Below, piece after piece: positions 53,172 to 59,850 of a stretch of 64,000 bases of DNA. Each line of letters begins with the position of its first letter. The first letter of the stretch is position 1. The position numbers and the translations under genes were made by a program. The stretch covers positions 62,001 through 126,000 of the forward strand of contig JANYLB010000032.1 in assembly GCA_025363815.1 (NCBI GenBank). Direction: 5' to 3'. This DNA comes from Actinomycetes bacterium. GTDB taxonomy: Bacteria; Actinomycetota; Acidimicrobiia; IMCC26256; JANYLB01. Under the pieces are notes generated by a model, which made no database searches, was not told the origin of the DNA, and saw only the letters and a list, made by a program, of their open reading frames with translations.

Positions 53172-54566
53172 GTGTTCTGGGGTCAACCGCGCGAGCAGGC
53201 CAGACACGCCGTCGTCACGACAGCCGTCGCGATCTTGATCTTGGCCGGCGTTGCGCCGTCGGCGCGTGCGACCTCTACGGCCACGCCACCACCAACCCTT
53301 TCCGATCCGACGACGACCACGTCGACGCAGACCTCCACGACCTTGGCGGAGCCGTCGACCACCACTTCGATGGCGCCCGCTACGTCCACGTCCACGTCGA
53401 GCTCGACCACGACCTCTCTGTCCAGGACAACGGCTCCGCCTGAGAACCCGACGCCGGGTGAAGCCCCGACGCCCGCGATGATCCTGGCGCAGCTCCGGCC
53501 AACGGTCGCGGCGCCGCCCCAGACCGGTCCCCCCGATGTCGCTCGGGAGCTGGCGCTACCGAGCGACTCGCTCACGGCTGCGATGGCGGAGCTCGACGCG
53601 CTCCAGGCAATCGCCCGAGGGCTCACAAACGCATACCCACCGCTGGTCGCGTCGGCAGAGTCGACGCGCCTCGCCGCAATCGAAGCCGCGCGATCCGTAG
53701 AGCGCACGCGCACGGCCCACGACCAAGCCCGAAGTCGAGTCGCGCGAACGATGCTCGACGCGGCGCGCTCGAGCCGACCAACTGAGCTGTCGGGCTCCGA
53801 CCTCGGGGCCAGGCGCGACCTCAAGTTGCTGCAGGCAACGATGCTTGCCCTTCGCAGGGAGGAAGCCCACCAGGACCGAATCTCCACCGATGCGGAACAC
53901 GTTCGCGCCTACACCGAGGCGCTGCGCGCCAACCATGCGGCGGCCGCGGTAGCTGTGTACGCCGAGATTTCAGGGGTCACCGCCAAGCTCACATCGACGC
54001 GAGTGGGCGTCGCCTTCGCCGGGCATGCGACCGCCGTCGACCCCGGCCCGACCGAGGTCGCGCGGCTCGCACGAGCCGCCGAGCTCGCGCTCGATTCCAA
54101 CATCGGCGTAGCTGGGTCACGGCGGCAGCTCGCCGAAGCGGTCGGTGCCCAAACCCAGCTCGACCCCGTGCGATTCGACACCGAATGGGCTGCGACCCCC
54201 GTGCCCGCCCTTCGGTCGACCTACTTCGCGTTGTCGCAGGTCGGCAAGCCCTACGTGTACGCCGCGGATGGCCCCGAGAGCTACGACTGCTCCGGTCTCA
54301 CCCGACGCGCCTGGCAGCAGGCGGGGATCTCGCTCCCCCACTTCTCGGGTGCGCAGCTCCACTCAGGTCTGCCGGTCGCACCGGCCCAGGTCCGGCCCGG
54401 CGACCTCCTCACTTACGGCCCAGACGGGAGCGAGCACGTGGTCCAGTACATCGGAGCCGGCTTCGACGTCGAGGCGATGGGGCGGCAGTGGGGCATCGTG
54501 ATCGAACGCGCCGACACCAATGCCGCCGGTGGCAACTTCGCCGGCGCATCACGACCTCTCCCCTAG
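53172..54566 (+). CDS. Secreted NlpC/P60 cell-wall peptidase
   Basis: GTG 53172 gives 464 residues. A signal peptide (hydrophobic 15-28) is followed by a Thr/Ser-rich linker, then an Ala/Arg-rich coiled coil (about 130-320) and a C-terminal NlpC/P60 domain with Y-D-C-S-G-L (Cys373) and V-R-P-G-D-L-L-T-Y-G-P-D-G-S-E-H-V (His). The family cuts gamma-D-Glu-dibasic acid bonds in stem peptides, which is relevant because the MurL/MurD operon that makes D-Glu is 1.2 kb downstream. It lies 130 bases after the response regulator, which may control it. Confidence 0.93.
   Translation: MFWGQPREQARHAVVTTAVAILILAGVAPSARATSTATPPPTLSDPTTTTSTQTSTTLAEPSTTTSMAPATSTSTSSSTTTSLSRTTAPPENPTPGEAPTPAMILAQLRPTVAAPPQTGPPDVARELALPSDSLTAAMAELDALQAIARGLTNAYPPLVASAESTRLAAIEAARSVERTRTAHDQARSRVARTMLDAARSSRPTELSGSDLGARRDLKLLQATMLALRREEAHQDRISTDAEHVRAYTEALRANHAAAAVAVYAEISGVTAKLTSTRVGVAFAGHATAVDPGPTEVARLARAAELALDSNIGVAGSRRQLAEAVGAQTQLDPVRFDTEWAATPVPALRSTYFALSQVGKPYVYAADGPESYDCSGLTRRAWQQAGISLPHFSGAQLHSGLPVAPAQVRPGDLLTYGPDGSEHVVQYIGAGFDVEAMGRQWGIVIERADTNAAGGNFAGASRPLP
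53300..53430 (+). repeat. Thr/Ser-coding low-complexity tract
   Basis: ACC, TCG, ACG and ACT codons alternate through this region of the NlpC/P60 gene and encode a Thr/Ser linker after the signal peptide. It resembles the tail tract of the pseudokinase. Confidence 0.65.
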
Positions 54567-54679: not shown

Positions 54680-55000
54680 ATGAGCTACGGAGCACCCGCA
54701 TTCGAACGCATCGAGCGCAACGGCGTGCCGACGCTCGTCATCACCGGTGAAGTCGACCTCGCCTGCGTCGACGAGCTCCGCGATCAGCTGCATGCGATCA
54801 CCTCGGCTCCCCTGGGTACCGGTGTTGTCGATCTCTCCGGCGTGACGTTTCTCGACTCGAGCGGCCTCGGCGTCCTCATCGCGGCGAAGAAGCACGCCGT
54901 CGCCGCCAACGCTGATCTCGCGCTCGCAGCGCCTTCACCGCCGTGTCGTAAGGTGCTCGAGATCAGCGGCGCCGATCAGTACTTCGAGATACGCGACTAG
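54680..55000 (+). CDS. STAS-domain anti-sigma factor antagonist
   Basis: ATG 54680 behind GGGAGGG gives 106 residues, the normal size for SpoIIAA/RsbV proteins. It starts with I-E-R-N-G-V-P-T-L-V-I-T-G-E-V-D-L and has F-L-D-S-S-G-L-G-V-L with the phosphorylatable Ser (60/61). It should bind a serine-kinase anti-sigma factor and so release a sigma factor; neither partner is in the window. It lies between the NlpC/P60 gene and the MurL operon but seems to be its own unit. Confidence 0.93.
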   Translation: MSYGAPAFERIERNGVPTLVITGEVDLACVDELRDQLHAITSAPLGTGVVDLSGVTFLDSSGLGVLIAAKKHAVAANADLALAAPSPPCRKVLEISGADQYFEIRD

Positions 55001-55095: not shown

Positions 55096-55863
55096 GTGAA
55101 CGGCACGCTCTACGATCGTGATGCCCTCCCCCCCGAGCTCACGATTCTCTTCGGGACCTCGCTCGGCCTTTCGCCCGTCTGTTACCCGAGGGAGAGACTC
55201 CTGCTACGCCAGAACCTCGACATCCTCGGGCGCGCCGCCGAGTCGGTCGGGTACTCGAGCTTCGATGCTGATGAAGCAGCGGAAACGATCTCGTGGATCG
55301 ATGCACCGGAGTCGGTGGTCGCTCTGGTCCCTTCCCCTGCCGACCACCGCGCCGCGCCGCCCGGCAACGACTGGTTGCTCGTAGGCGCTCCGTTCAGCGC
55401 GCCTGACGCGTCGGATCCACTTCACCTCGGGGTCTCGATCCATCGCCGGAACCACCACAACCCCATGATCAACACGCTTTTCCTGGGCGACGGCGAGCTG
55501 CTCGCCGGAACCCGTGAGGCCATCGCCACCGGCCTGGACGACGTCGTCTGGTTGAACCTCGACGACAACGTGTCGTGCATCGCCTCGGGTGCACTCTTTG
55601 CCGAGATCGACGCCGAGGTGGTCACCCCACCGCTCGCCGATGGCGTCCCCGACAGCGCATGGCGAGCCGCGTGCATCGATGAGACGGGTGCCGTGGAGCT
55701 CCACCTCGACCTCAAGGAGCTGCTCGCCGCCCAATCGGTCGCATGCGTCTGGCCTTGGGGATCCGCGCAGGCCGTCGGCACGATCGACCAGACGTCGTAC
55801 GCCAACGCGTCACTCGCGACGAGGCTCGTCACCTCGATCACAACCGCAGGGGGTCGACGATGA
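55096..55863 (+). CDS. Class IV aminotransferase-like protein, PLP lysine not seen
   Basis: This 255-residue frame uses GTG 55096, but I-W-V-N-G just upstream is also in frame (from 55090), so a rare start further up is possible. The layout is that of fold-type IV PLP enzymes (D-amino-acid and branched-chain aminotransferases). The N-terminal W-V-N-G-T-L and the C-terminal N-V-S-C-I-A-S-G-A-L-F-A-E-I-D-A-E-V-V-T-P-P-L-A-D-G-V match the family's E-G-S-x-S-N-x-F-x-x-x-D-G-x-L-x-T-P-P. In the family lysine region this protein reads H-R-R-N-H-H-N-P, with no Lys; the only Lys lies late. It overlaps murL by ATGA. Most likely a non-catalytic or repurposed partner; see the finding. Confidence 0.6.
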   Translation: MNGTLYDRDALPPELTILFGTSLGLSPVCYPRERLLLRQNLDILGRAAESVGYSSFDADEAAETISWIDAPESVVALVPSPADHRAAPPGNDWLLVGAPFSAPDASDPLHLGVSIHRRNHHNPMINTLFLGDGELLAGTREAIATGLDDVVWLNLDDNVSCIASGALFAEIDAEVVTPPLADGVPDSAWRAACIDETGAVELHLDLKELLAAQSVACVWPWGSAQAVGTIDQTSYANASLATRLVTSITTAGGRR

Positions 55864-57230
55864 CGGACCGCACCGACCACGGGCTCACCGGACCGTTCAC
55901 GTTCGAGCGCGCCTCGATCGACCGCAATCAGGTCGAGCTCGGGTATCGGATCGGCACTGCGGTTGGTACTGGCATCGAGCTCACCGAGATAATCGAGTTT
56001 CCGTTCTCGCTCGGCGACTCCGCGGCGGTTCGTGCCGCGGTCCGGACCCTGCACCTCATCGCCGGGGTCTCGTACTACAAGTGCGTCGCGCCGACGGCGC
56101 TCGTAACCCACCCGTTGGTATCCGCCGAGCGCGCGCTGCTCCGCGCGCTGTACGACGAGGGTTTGCGCGAGTTCGCGTACCGCAACGACCTCGCGATACC
56201 GCTCCCGGTTGAGCTGCGTGAGACCAATGACAATTCGTCCGTGCCGCTCCCGCTCATCGCGCCTGTACCCCTCGAGAACATCGGCGCGCTCATCCCGGTA
56301 GGAGGCGGCAAGGACTCCGCTCTCGTTGCCGACCTGGTTGCCGACGGCCGGCTCATGACCGTCAATCCCACTGCCGCCCACGAACGGCTCGCTGCTTCCC
56401 TGGGGCGACCATTGCTCGGGGTCACGCGGCGGCTCGATCCGCGCCTGCGAGAGCTCATCGCCGCGGGTGCCCCGAACGGGCATGTTCCGGTGACCGCGAT
56501 CAACTCCGCGATCGCGGCGATCGTCGCGGTCGTGTGCGGCCTCCGCGACGTCGTAATGGGCCTCGAGCGCTCGGCCTCCGAACCGAGCCTCGTTGTCGAC
56601 GGCATCGAGATCAACCATCAGTTCTCGAAGTCACTTCGGGCAGAGCAGCTGCTGCGGGCGATTTTCGAACCGCTCGGAATCCGCTACTTCTCCCTGCTCC
56701 GACCGCTCACCGAGCTCGCGATCGGCACGAGCCTCGCCCGGCGCGGCCTCACCGACGACATCGTCTCGTGCAACCGGGTCTTCACCGTCTGGAACGAGAC
56801 CACCGCCAGCCGAGAGCAACGACCGTGTGGCCAGTGCGCTAAGTGTCTGTTCACCGCGCTCGTGCTGGCCCCGTCCCTCGACCCGAAGGCCGTGTACGCA
56901 CACTTCGGCCACCACGTCTTCGACGAGCTCGAGAACATCGACGGTGTAAGGGCGCTCTGGTCGGACGCCAAGCCTTTCGACTGTGTAGGTGAGCGCATGG
57001 AATCAGTATCGGCCCTGACGGTGCTGGCCGACTCCTCGGTCTGGCGGCACCACGCGGTTGTGTCCGCCCTTGCTCCCGAAGCCCGTTCGTTGCTCGAGTC
57101 GCACGGCACCAGCACCGGCGACTATCTCCACGTCGGGTCGGTCGACGGGCTGCCCGAGGAGTACCGCGATCGCATCTGCCGGATCGCATCCGAGATCGAA
57201 CCGATTCAGGGACCTGCCGATGCGAGTTGA
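55860..57230 (+). CDS. murL: MurL, UDP-MurNAc-L-Ala-L-Glu epimerase
   Basis: ATG 55860 gives 456 residues. The sequence follows the MurL family: I-P-V-G-G-G-K-D-S-A-L-V (residues 143-155), R-R-L-D-P-R-L-R-E-L, A-G-A-P-N-G-H-V-P-V-T-A-I, L-E-R-S-A-S-E-P, I-N-H-Q-F-S-K-S, F-S-L-L-R-P-L-T-E-L, and C-G-Q-C-A-K-C with K-P-F-D-C-V-G-E near the end. The family, described in Xanthomonas, converts the L-Glu of UDP-MurNAc-L-Ala-L-Glu to D-Glu with ATP, so racemase MurI is not needed. Its partner is a MurD that takes L-Glu, and a MurD-type ligase begins 11 bases before its stop. The gene is the core of the operon 55096-58488. Confidence 0.9.
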   Translation: MTDRTDHGLTGPFTFERASIDRNQVELGYRIGTAVGTGIELTEIIEFPFSLGDSAAVRAAVRTLHLIAGVSYYKCVAPTALVTHPLVSAERALLRALYDEGLREFAYRNDLAIPLPVELRETNDNSSVPLPLIAPVPLENIGALIPVGGGKDSALVADLVADGRLMTVNPTAAHERLAASLGRPLLGVTRRLDPRLRELIAAGAPNGHVPVTAINSAIAAIVAVVCGLRDVVMGLERSASEPSLVVDGIEINHQFSKSLRAEQLLRAIFEPLGIRYFSLLRPLTELAIGTSLARRGLTDDIVSCNRVFTVWNETTASREQRPCGQCAKCLFTALVLAPSLDPKAVYAHFGHHVFDELENIDGVRALWSDAKPFDCVGERMESVSALTVLADSSVWRHHAVVSALAPEARSLLESHGTSTGDYLHVGSVDGLPEEYRDRICRIASEIEPIQGPADAS

Positions 57231-58488
57231 CGACCTGCGTGGTCGACGGGTCGCGCTCCTCGGCCTCGGGATCGACGTACGCGCCGCGCTCCCCGCGATC
57301 ATGGCGGCCGGACCGAGTGAACTCGTCGTCGTCGACGAGAGCCTGACCGCCCGCGAGCACGAAGGTCTTCCGGTGGCATCGCTCGGTGCAGCGACACGGA
57401 ACGCGGAGATCCTCGTGCGCTCCCCCGGCTTCCCCCGCTACGTCGCGCCCATCGGCGACGCGATCGCCGGGGGCACGATGATGACCACTCCCGTCGACCT
57501 GTGGGCATGCTCGCTCCCCGGAAACCAACGGTTAGTGATGGTGACAGGGACCAAGGGCAAGTCGACGACCACCGACCTGATAGGCCACCTCGCCGGCCGT
57601 TCGGGTCTCCAGGTAGGAGTGGCCGGAAACTTCGGGATCCCGGTGTTCTCCGACGCCTGGGACCATGACGCGCCAATCGTCGTCATCGAGGTCTCGAGCT
57701 ATCAGGCGAGCGATCTCCACAATGTGCCGGAGATCGCGGTCCTCACCTCGCTCGCCGAGGATCACCTCGACTGGCACGGCAGCTACGAGCAGTACCGCAG
57801 CGACAAGCTCCGCGTCGTCGGAAACGACGGACGCGCGGCCACTCACGTGTTCGTCCCCCGCGCCGAAGCGGCCGCGATCGACGCGACGCGAGCCTTCTCC
57901 GCGAATCTCGTCGACGTGCCCGAGCACGCGCTTCGACTCCCAATCCACCGCGTGCAGAACGCCGCACTCGCGGCGCGCGTGGTTGGCGCGCTGGGTGCGA
58001 CCGGCATCGGTGACGCCGAAATCCTCGATGCAGCCGAGCGCTTCCTGCCCGGCCGGCTCGCGACCTGCGCCGGACCCGCCGATGGTCTGTGGATCGATGA
58101 TGCCCTCGCTACGAACCCCTCCGCGGCCGCCGCCGGCCTCGCTTGGGCTCGATCGCTCGATCGCCCGACGATCGTGTTGCTCGGCGGCGTTGACCGCGGG
58201 GTGAACCCGAGCCCGCTGAAAGAAGAGATCGCGCGGTGGCCCACTGGGCGCATCCGCGCGGTGACACTTCCCGACAACGGAGCCGCGCTCGCAGCGGCAT
58301 GCGGCATCGAGGTGGTCAGCGCCGCGGAGACGGTTCCCGACGCGGTCGCGGGCGCGGCCGACGCACTCCCCCGCAACGGCATCGTCATGTTCTCGCCTGC
58401 GGCACCGACCCCGCCCGCGGTCGGAACCTGGAAGATCCGCTCCGACGCGTTCCGAGCCGCAGCCGCTGCCCTGCGTGACGGCTCCTGA
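57220..58488 (+). CDS. murD2: MurD-type UDP-MurNAc-L-Ala-glutamate ligase (MurD2 candidate)
   Basis: A 422-residue Mur ligase starting inside murL. The P-loop T-G-T-K-G-K-S-T (109-116), N-F-G-I-P near 145, E-V-S-S-Y-Q near 160, and E-D-H-L-D-W-H-G near 190 are the MurD pattern. N-terminal G-L-G-I-D replaces the typical G-x-G-x-S. The C-terminal half keeps D-D-A-L-A-T-N-P. In Xanthomonas MurD2 adds L-Glu and MurL then epimerises it; the coupled gene order here predicts the same. That the enzyme prefers L-Glu is an inference; only its partnership with MurL supports it. Confidence 0.9.
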   Translation: MRVDDLRGRRVALLGLGIDVRAALPAIMAAGPSELVVVDESLTAREHEGLPVASLGAATRNAEILVRSPGFPRYVAPIGDAIAGGTMMTTPVDLWACSLPGNQRLVMVTGTKGKSTTTDLIGHLAGRSGLQVGVAGNFGIPVFSDAWDHDAPIVVIEVSSYQASDLHNVPEIAVLTSLAEDHLDWHGSYEQYRSDKLRVVGNDGRAATHVFVPRAEAAAIDATRAFSANLVDVPEHALRLPIHRVQNAALAARVVGALGATGIGDAEILDAAERFLPGRLATCAGPADGLWIDDALATNPSAAAAGLAWARSLDRPTIVLLGGVDRGVNPSPLKEEIARWPTGRIRAVTLPDNGAALAAACGIEVVSAAETVPDAVAGAADALPRNGIVMFSPAAPTPPAVGTWKIRSDAFRAAAAALRDGS

Positions 58489-58605: not shown

Positions 58606-59814
58606 TCACACGGGTGGCGGCTCCCACACCCGATCCGGAGCGCCGACGCCGTAAAGCTTCGCGGCGTTGTCCCAGAGCACCTTCCGACGGGTGATGGCGT
58701 CGAGTCTGCCGAACGCTTCGTCGATCCGCTCTCGCACGTTGCCATACAGGCAGACCGGATGCGGGTAGTCGGTCTCGAACAGCACGTTGTCGGCGCCGAT
58801 CACGTCGAGGTCGCGTTGGGGCGCGTGCGACTCGAAGAACGAGCACGCGTACACCTGGCGGTGGAAGTAGTCGCTCGGGCGCATGTCGAACTCGGGTCGC
58901 TCGGCTCTCATCGTCGAGTACTCGAAGCAGTAGTCGGCCGACTCGAGCACGAACGGTACCCACCCGATGCCGCTCTCGACCGAGACAAACCGAACTTCGG
59001 GATGACGGGGAAGAACCCCGCTCAACAACAGATCGGCGACCTGCATCGCGTTGCCGAGGAACAGACCGAGGCTGGTGGTGACGAGGGTCGAGCCGACGCC
59101 GTGTGCCTTCACCCGATCGCGGTTGAAGGAGTCGGACATGTCGCCCGAGCCGATGTGGAAGTTGAGCGAGAGGCCGGTCTCGGCCGCGACGCGGTATAGC
59201 GGGTCCCAGTGGCGGTCGCCCAGATGCGGCTGGCCTAGCACCTGCGGCTCCCCTGAGAACAAGATCCCTTTGTGTCCGATCGCGGCGCAGCGCTCGACCT
59301 CGCCGACAGTCGCCTCGATGTCCCAGAACGGTGTGGCCATGATCGGAATGAAACGGCGCGGGTCGGGCGAGCACCATTCGATCAGCCAGTCGTTGTAGGC
59401 CTTGACGCAGGCGAGCATGAGATCCGGATCGCCGAGCTCGAGGAATCCCTGGTTCCCGAACCCACCGATGTTGGGATACAGCGCCATCGCCCAAATGCCG
59501 ACCGAGTCCATGTACGCGAGCCGCGCCTCGGCATCGTGCGCGGCAAGCGGCGCCTCCTCCATCGTCTTCGGGCACGAAGGGAACGGCTTGGGCCAGCCCG
59601 CGACCGCAGTCATCCCGATCGGGATGGGCTGCGCGTTGGCACCGATCTGCCACGCGTCGACGCCGCGTTCGGTGCGGACCATCCGAGGGCCGAGATCGCG
59701 CCACTTCGCAGGCAGTCGATCACGCCAGACCCCGGCTGACTCGGTGATGTGGGTGTCGCAGTCAATGACCCAGTCGCTGATCTGGCTCTCGGGTTGGTTC
59801 ACTGGTTCGTTCAT
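58606..59814 (-). CDS. Amidohydrolase-2 family protein (second)
   Basis: ATG 59814, seven bases after GAGGGGG, gives 402 residues. It shows W-V-I-D-C-D-T-H-I-T-E (metal motif), L-Y-P-N-I-G-G-F near 110, N-F-H-I-G-S-G in the middle, E-S-G-I-G-W-V-P-F, and V-L-F-E-T-D-Y-P-H-P near the C-terminus. Similar in pattern to the 38912 product. It is 36 bases downstream of, and on the same strand as, the signal-less binding protein at 59851, so they are probably cotranscribed. Confidence 0.9.
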   Translation of the reverse strand: MNEPVNQPESQISDWVIDCDTHITESAGVWRDRLPAKWRDLGPRMVRTERGVDAWQIGANAQPIPIGMTAVAGWPKPFPSCPKTMEEAPLAAHDAEARLAYMDSVGIWAMALYPNIGGFGNQGFLELGDPDLMLACVKAYNDWLIEWCSPDPRRFIPIMATPFWDIEATVGEVERCAAIGHKGILFSGEPQVLGQPHLGDRHWDPLYRVAAETGLSLNFHIGSGDMSDSFNRDRVKAHGVGSTLVTTSLGLFLGNAMQVADLLLSGVLPRHPEVRFVSVESGIGWVPFVLESADYCFEYSTMRAERPEFDMRPSDYFHRQVYACSFFESHAPQRDLDVIGADNVLFETDYPHPVCLYGNVRERIDEAFGRLDAITRRKVLWDNAAKLYGVGAPDRVWEPPPV

Positions 59815-59850
59815 CGGCATCCCCCTCGTGATCACACGCGCCCCACCGGA

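Follow-up and report, generated by a model that had tools for sequence, protein, structure and literature searches.

A conserved class IV aminotransferase-like protein, apparently without a pyridoxal phosphate site, precedes murL in a clade of Actinomycetota

Why does a gene resembling an aminotransferase lie in one operon with the enzymes that supply the D-glutamate (D-Glu) of peptidoglycan, and what could its product do there? The question is raised by a three-gene operon in a 64,000-nucleotide stretch of contig JANYLB010000032.1 (the window), which belongs to a 2.68 Mb, 89% complete metagenome-assembled genome (MAG) that groups with Acidimicrobiia-like genomes. The genes overlap head to tail: gene A, whose product has the class IV aminotransferase (ATIV) fold, is followed by murL and by the gene of a MurD2-type ligase (Table 1). 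An earlier annotation made from the letters of the DNA alone (the sequence-only reading) had placed three open reading frames (ORFs) here, and both the ORFs and their overlaps (ATGA at 55860-55863; 11 bases at 57220-57230) are real. In the known pathway, described in bacteria without other D-Glu genes, MurD2 adds L-Glu and MurL epimerizes it with ATP (PMC8788868). That pathway is known; what the operon adds to it, judging by the sequences, is a conserved, clade-specific ATIV protein that lacks a pyridoxal phosphate (PLP) site and is tied to murL. No description of this protein was found in the literature searched.

Protein A and its linkage to murL

Protein A matches Pfam Aminotran_4 above the curated cut-off, and profile comparison returned class IV aminotransferases and aminodeoxychorismate (ADC) lyases only (5ce8, 3lul and 3qqm; profile A2 against the PDB gave E 6e-10 for 5ce8 and 1.5e-6 for 3lul). 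Among curated families, PRK07546, aminodeoxychorismate lyase and IlvE come nearest, and the D-amino-acid transaminase (DAAT) model TIGR01121 was not among the model matches. On this sequence evidence, A is a diverged ATIV, nearest to the PabC/IlvE type and not to the DAATs, so the connection to DAATs drawn in the sequence-only reading falls away. The same annotation had held that A lacks the PLP lysine, which is confirmed by an alignment of the six complete A sequences with 20 canonical ATIVs and 3lul. Other residues occupy the lysine position in the PabC register (Table 1), T, L, V or W occupy it in the IlvE register, and no conserved lysine column occurs anywhere in the family; the glutamate that faces the pyridine nitrogen of the PLP ring is also replaced, and the G-I-T phosphate-binding motif has become SAW, SAC or TPW. 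All three elements are missing from 6/6 complete sequences, and their joint loss, as judged from sequence, excludes the usual transaminase and lyase reactions. A candidate for the lost lysine site, HRRN (residues 116-119), was ruled out, as the alignment with 3lul and the canonical ATIVs puts the lysine about 10 residues further on. The family retains 40 invariant columns at about 30-37% identity, and its invariant polar residues are an RN motif, H84, D132, R190 and E201. The matches listed by Foldseek for the predicted structure of A are all ATIVs, with a template modeling (TM) score of only ~0.46 from a poor model.

The distribution of A is narrow. Across 395 genomes of the class, only G420 (apparently IMCC26207) and the host genome gave high scores with its profile (429 and 364 bits); the rest reached no more than 47.5 bits, and those of the weaker matches that were inspected are ordinary ATIVs. 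Within the IMCC26207 family (33 genomes), six genomes have strong A matches and seven have MurL; all six A genes lie directly 5' of murL (the L038 copy being truncated at the end of its contig), which takes the proposed link between the two genes beyond chance. In the genomes searched, the A family always stands directly before murL and was never seen without it, and a search of plasmids with A gave no match. An overlap with murL is kept in all complete copies, being 4 nt in the IMCC26207 group, L071 and the window, and 1 nt in L072. The order in the IMCC26207 group is cysK-like, A, murL, murD2, after which rph and rdgB come next in L071 and L072 (names by eye), whereas in the window a STAS-like ORF (also by eye) takes the place of the cysK-like gene; the trio has thus been kept while its surroundings changed. 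All A-bearing rows of the MurL tree fall in one fully supported clade of nine, together with L035 and L040. The simplest history is one gain of A at the base of this clade and one loss, and two gains are possible. Four of the A-bearing rows come from near-identical species, so the independent evidence amounts to three MurL lineages in two contexts.

Between close relatives, the ratio of nonsynonymous to synonymous changes (pN/pS) is 0.29-0.30 for A (P 3e-5 to 1e-3 versus neutrality); murL has 0.07-0.11 and murD2 has 0.13-0.17. Raw pN/pS counts were used because dN/dS for A is saturated between L071 and L072. Protein A is under purifying selection, with less constraint than MurL and MurD2.

Possible roles of protein A

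On balance, we favor an explanation in which A adds to the known MurD2/MurL pathway a PLP-independent accessory protein that is specific to this clade and serves the MurD2-MurL step. Translated immediately before MurL, A would have been retained by selection for this non-PLP role; it could bind MurL, MurD2 or the UDP-N-acetylmuramoyl (UDP-MurNAc)-peptide, and would tune, channel or quality-check the reaction, perhaps as a regulator or a precursor-quality factor. We infer both the involvement of A in the D-Glu pathway and its mode of action. Among the options raised in the sequence-only reading, a partner of MurL fits best, as a presumptive role and within one clade. A more specific version, which we offer tentatively, is that A is a former PLP enzyme, now PLP-free, that has become a dedicated partner or editor, binding MurL or UDP-MurNAc-L-Ala-Glu and controlling the stereochemical step, and that each lineage has its own factor of this sort in the slot before murL (PgeF, an M20 peptidase or an ATIV-like protein).

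The occupants of this slot elsewhere bear on both versions. In lineage f31, PgeF/YfiH (PF02578) is encoded directly 5' of murL in 12/12 loci (L021, L022, L024-L031, L033 and L034; two identified by Pfam, the others by motif and similarity). As ftsZ does not lie within these loci, a simple position in the division and cell wall (dcw) cluster does not explain PgeF there. PgeF/YfiH is an amidase that cleaves UDP-MurNAc-L-Ser (PMC8844914), and its place beside murL suggests that precursor editing is coupled to the MurL route. In four f69 loci (L126, L127, L128 and L130), the slot is occupied by an M20 family peptidase gene, and in Xanthomonas sacchari (L168:3519-3971) it is held by a gene for a 150-aa hypothetical, apparently membrane protein that overlaps murL by 4 nt. 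The position is variable, with PgeF in one lineage, and by analogy A could plausibly have an accessory or quality-control role.

Several observations weigh against assigning A such a role. L035 and L040, close relatives with MurL and MurD2, lack A both beside murL and elsewhere in their genomes, and none of the other MurL lineages examined has it; the route as such can therefore run without A. A general partnership with MurL, which the sequence-only reading itself proposed to check among MurL homologues, fails since most of them do without the gene. The Xanthomonas MurL is active in vitro without an A-like protein (PMC8788868). The A-murL link has few independent origins, being confined to a single MurL clade and two genomic contexts; changes accumulate faster in A than in MurL (pN/pS 0.29 versus 0.07-0.11), and the AlphaFold model of A is poor (predicted local distance difference test, pLDDT, 58), which precludes reading a binding site.

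A different possibility, which we consider unlikely, is that A is an enzyme that catalyzes a new reaction without PLP; it might, for instance, hydrolyze or edit incorrect UDP-MurNAc-peptides, its gene holding the position that pgeF has in other MurL operons. The activity of PgeF/YfiH, its position before murL away from ftsZ, the M20 peptidases in the same slot and the invariant polar residues of A would all suit such an enzyme. However, no catalytic motif was recognized in A, its evolution is relaxed, the host genome keeps a pgeF of its own beside ftsZ (locus L145), and the shared position is an analogy only.

Somewhat less probable still is that A is a passenger, a diverged ATIV co-transcribed by chance and with a function unrelated to D-Glu. 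Its absence from most MurL operons, those of near relatives included, and the relaxed selection on it are what a passenger would show, but the occurrence of A with murL and nowhere else in the genomes searched, the overlap of 1-4 nt kept in every complete copy and the retention of the trio in two contexts argue for a tie to its neighbors. That A is the decaying remnant of a PabC, IlvE or DAAT enzyme is very improbable: all PLP residues are lost, but the reading frame is intact in all complete copies, purifying selection acts on it (P 3e-5), which also disfavors the "decayed enzyme" of the sequence-only reading, the 40 invariant columns persist at low identity, and canonical IlvE and PabC-like proteins are encoded separately in the host genome.

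The analysis points toward lineage-specific accessory proteins at the sole step in which a precursor of the wrong stereoisomer is present in the cytoplasm. If A does control MurL, it would offer a handle on this enzyme, which belongs to a pathway proposed as a target for narrow-spectrum drugs.

The D-glutamate route and its genomic setting

The MurD2/MurL pair is well supported as the D-Glu route here, in keeping with the sequence-only reading, and three independent tests agree on it. The first concerns murI. In a 198-genome sample of the class, MurL occurs in 16 genomes and MurI over the cut-off in 113, with zero overlap. The host genome has no MurI match at all, the only one in the MurL genome G141 scores 29 bits, and ten further MurL genomes have none over the cut-off and a single match below it (89 bits in G210). 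The second concerns murD of the dcw cluster, which in the host runs murE-murF-mraY-ftsW contiguously, with murG-murC-murB-ftsQ-ftsZ on another contig, and has no murD; murD is likewise absent between mraY and ftsW in IMCC26207. Gene absences in the host are read from an 89% complete MAG, in which genes may be missed.

The third test is the ligase itself, which scores below the TIGR01087 murD cut-off of 212 bits. It departs from E. coli MurD at K319 and K348, as do all MurL-linked ligases compared, while the canonical set (the 11 readable of 12 loci from murI-bearing relatives, with L158 left out) keeps lysine at both (Table 1). K319 and the K348 position (R358 in Xanthomonas oryzae MurD2) have been tied to the stereochemical choice of Glu (PMC8788868), and the use of a residue other than lysine at K319 as a MurD2 mark is derived in this analysis. 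The ligase also has Pro at E. coli MurD A414. At D182, where X. oryzae MurD2 has Glu as the published mark (PMC8788868), it has Asp181, and as most other MurL-linked ligases, including most actinobacterial ones, likewise keep Asp, D182E is no general mark of MurD2.

The host genome's two other ATIVs, an IlvE and a PabC-like protein encoded beside a pabB-like ORF (by eye), both fall below the cut-off of the DAAT model. It is hardly credible that the ligase is a normal, D-Glu-adding MurD, fed with D-Glu from an unrecognized source while MurL serves something else: the retained Asp and the incompleteness of the MAG can be cited for it, but K319L and K348R, the lack of any murI or DAAT equivalog among the host genes found, the dcw cluster without murD and the same Asp in most other MurL-linked ligases stand against it. 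Most likely, the organism obtains its peptidoglycan D-Glu through this operon alone, with both the MurD2 and the MurL steps inferred from tested homologs, residues and gene losses. The route thereby extends to further uncultured actinobacterial lineages, in a clean swap against murI and the dcw murD, and residues are defined by which MurL-linked ligases can be told apart from canonical ligases that add D-Glu.

Two further observations concern D-Glu supply elsewhere. In two f3 genomes of one genus (L020:1879-4510 and L023:6451-9036), a single open frame encodes MurL followed by MurD2, a fusion that hints at channeling between both steps. Many genomes of family f21 genus g33 (~1 Mb) have neither MurL nor MurI over the cut-off in the class sample; their D-Glu source is perhaps a transaminase.

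MurL of the window covers positions 10-443 of 447 in model NF041275 with 279 bits, below the cut-off of 700 of this Xanthomonas-trained model, which all actinobacterial MurLs scored likewise miss, and it carries all 34 columns that are invariant across 30 MurLs. Its GGGKDS motif and cysteine cluster resemble those of PP-loop ATP pyrophosphatases (QueC, TtuA and NAD synthetase), and weak profile matches to PP-loop enzymes (E about 0.1) center on GGGKDS. A Foldseek search with the confident MurL model (pLDDT 92) gave no significant PDB match, so the PP-loop idea draws on the motif, the predicted secondary structure and the weak profile matches; going by the model, MurL may have a new fold or a strongly rearranged one. 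The Pseudonocardia plasmids NZ_CP011869, NZ_CP010991 and NZ_CP052772 also carry MurL-like genes, whose products are annotated as hypothetical; in the one inspected, NZ_CP010991 (L169), integrases are close by and no annotated murD is near. The X. sacchari plasmid NZ_CP010410 (L168) carries both murL and murD.

The trio forms a compact unit, since the STAS-like ORF upstream ends at 55000 and a convergent amidohydrolase gene on the other strand (58606-59835) lies beyond 58488. Gene A starts with GTG, and no in-frame ATG, GTG or TTG precedes it; the preceding codons, ATC TGG, resemble the usual ATIV N-terminus, and the true start may lie slightly further upstream. A scan for promoters and terminators gave no match, which says little for a GC-rich actinobacterium. 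Apart from the trio, and upstream of the STAS-like ORF, lies a gene for a secreted-looking NlpC/P60 peptidoglycan hydrolase (53172-54566).

Table 1. Features of the operon, in window coordinates
Feature	Position	Strand	Evidence
Gene A, ATIV-fold protein, 255 aa	55096..55863	+	PF01063 E 5e-11; PDB ATIV profile matches; family seen only beside murL
Leu128 codon, PLP lysine position in PabC register	55477..55479	+	Alignment with 3lul and canonical ATIVs; L/Q/M in relatives
Cys161 codon, position of PLP-ring glutamate (pyridine nitrogen)	55576..55578	+	C or S in relatives; E in 20/20 canonical ATIVs
murL, 456 aa	55860..57230	+	NF041275 E 6e-83; start within gene A stop (ATGA)
GGGKDS motif of MurL, PP-loop-like (ATP pyrophosphatases)	56301..56318	+	G148, G150, D152 and S153 invariant in 30 MurLs
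Invariant cysteine cluster of MurL (SC...CxxCxKC)	56769..56846	+	C304, C323, C326 and C329 invariant in 30 MurLs
murD2-type ligase gene, 422 aa	57220..58488	+	TIGR01087 175 bits; MurD2 signature residues; only MurD-type ligase located in genome
MurD2 signature 1, Leu296 at E. coli MurD K319	58105..58107	+	L/I in 36/36 MurL-linked ligases; K in 11/11 canonical MurDs
MurD2 signature 2, Arg326 at E. coli MurD K348	58195..58197	+	R in 36/36 MurL-linked ligases; K in 11/11 canonical MurDs

Comparison with known systems

PgeF/YfiH of the related lineage f31 resembles A in that its gene immediately precedes murL, but it belongs to another Pfam family, and no sequence similarity between the two was noted. 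The DAATs (TIGR01121) share the superfamily fold of A, whereas A is not matched by their model, lacks the PLP site and gives no sign of D-Glu transamination. Closer are the class IV aminotransferases and ADC lyases (PabC, PRK07546 and IlvE; 3lul, 3qqm and 5ce8), which A resembles in sequence and predicted fold over most of its length, TPPL and the Arg of the GITR region being retained; A differs from them in having lost the PLP lysine, the PLP glutamate and G-I-T, and in sitting in a murL operon. For the operon as a whole, the closest counterpart is the MurD2/MurL pathway of X. oryzae (XOO_1320/XOO_1319), known also from Micromonospora and Salinispora. Common to both are an adjacent murL-murD2 pair in the absence of murI, MurD2-type residues in the ligase and a full-length MurL with the invariant motifs. 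The host differs from X. oryzae in the Asp that its MurD2 retains at E. coli D182, and in possessing a third gene, A, that overlaps the start of murL.

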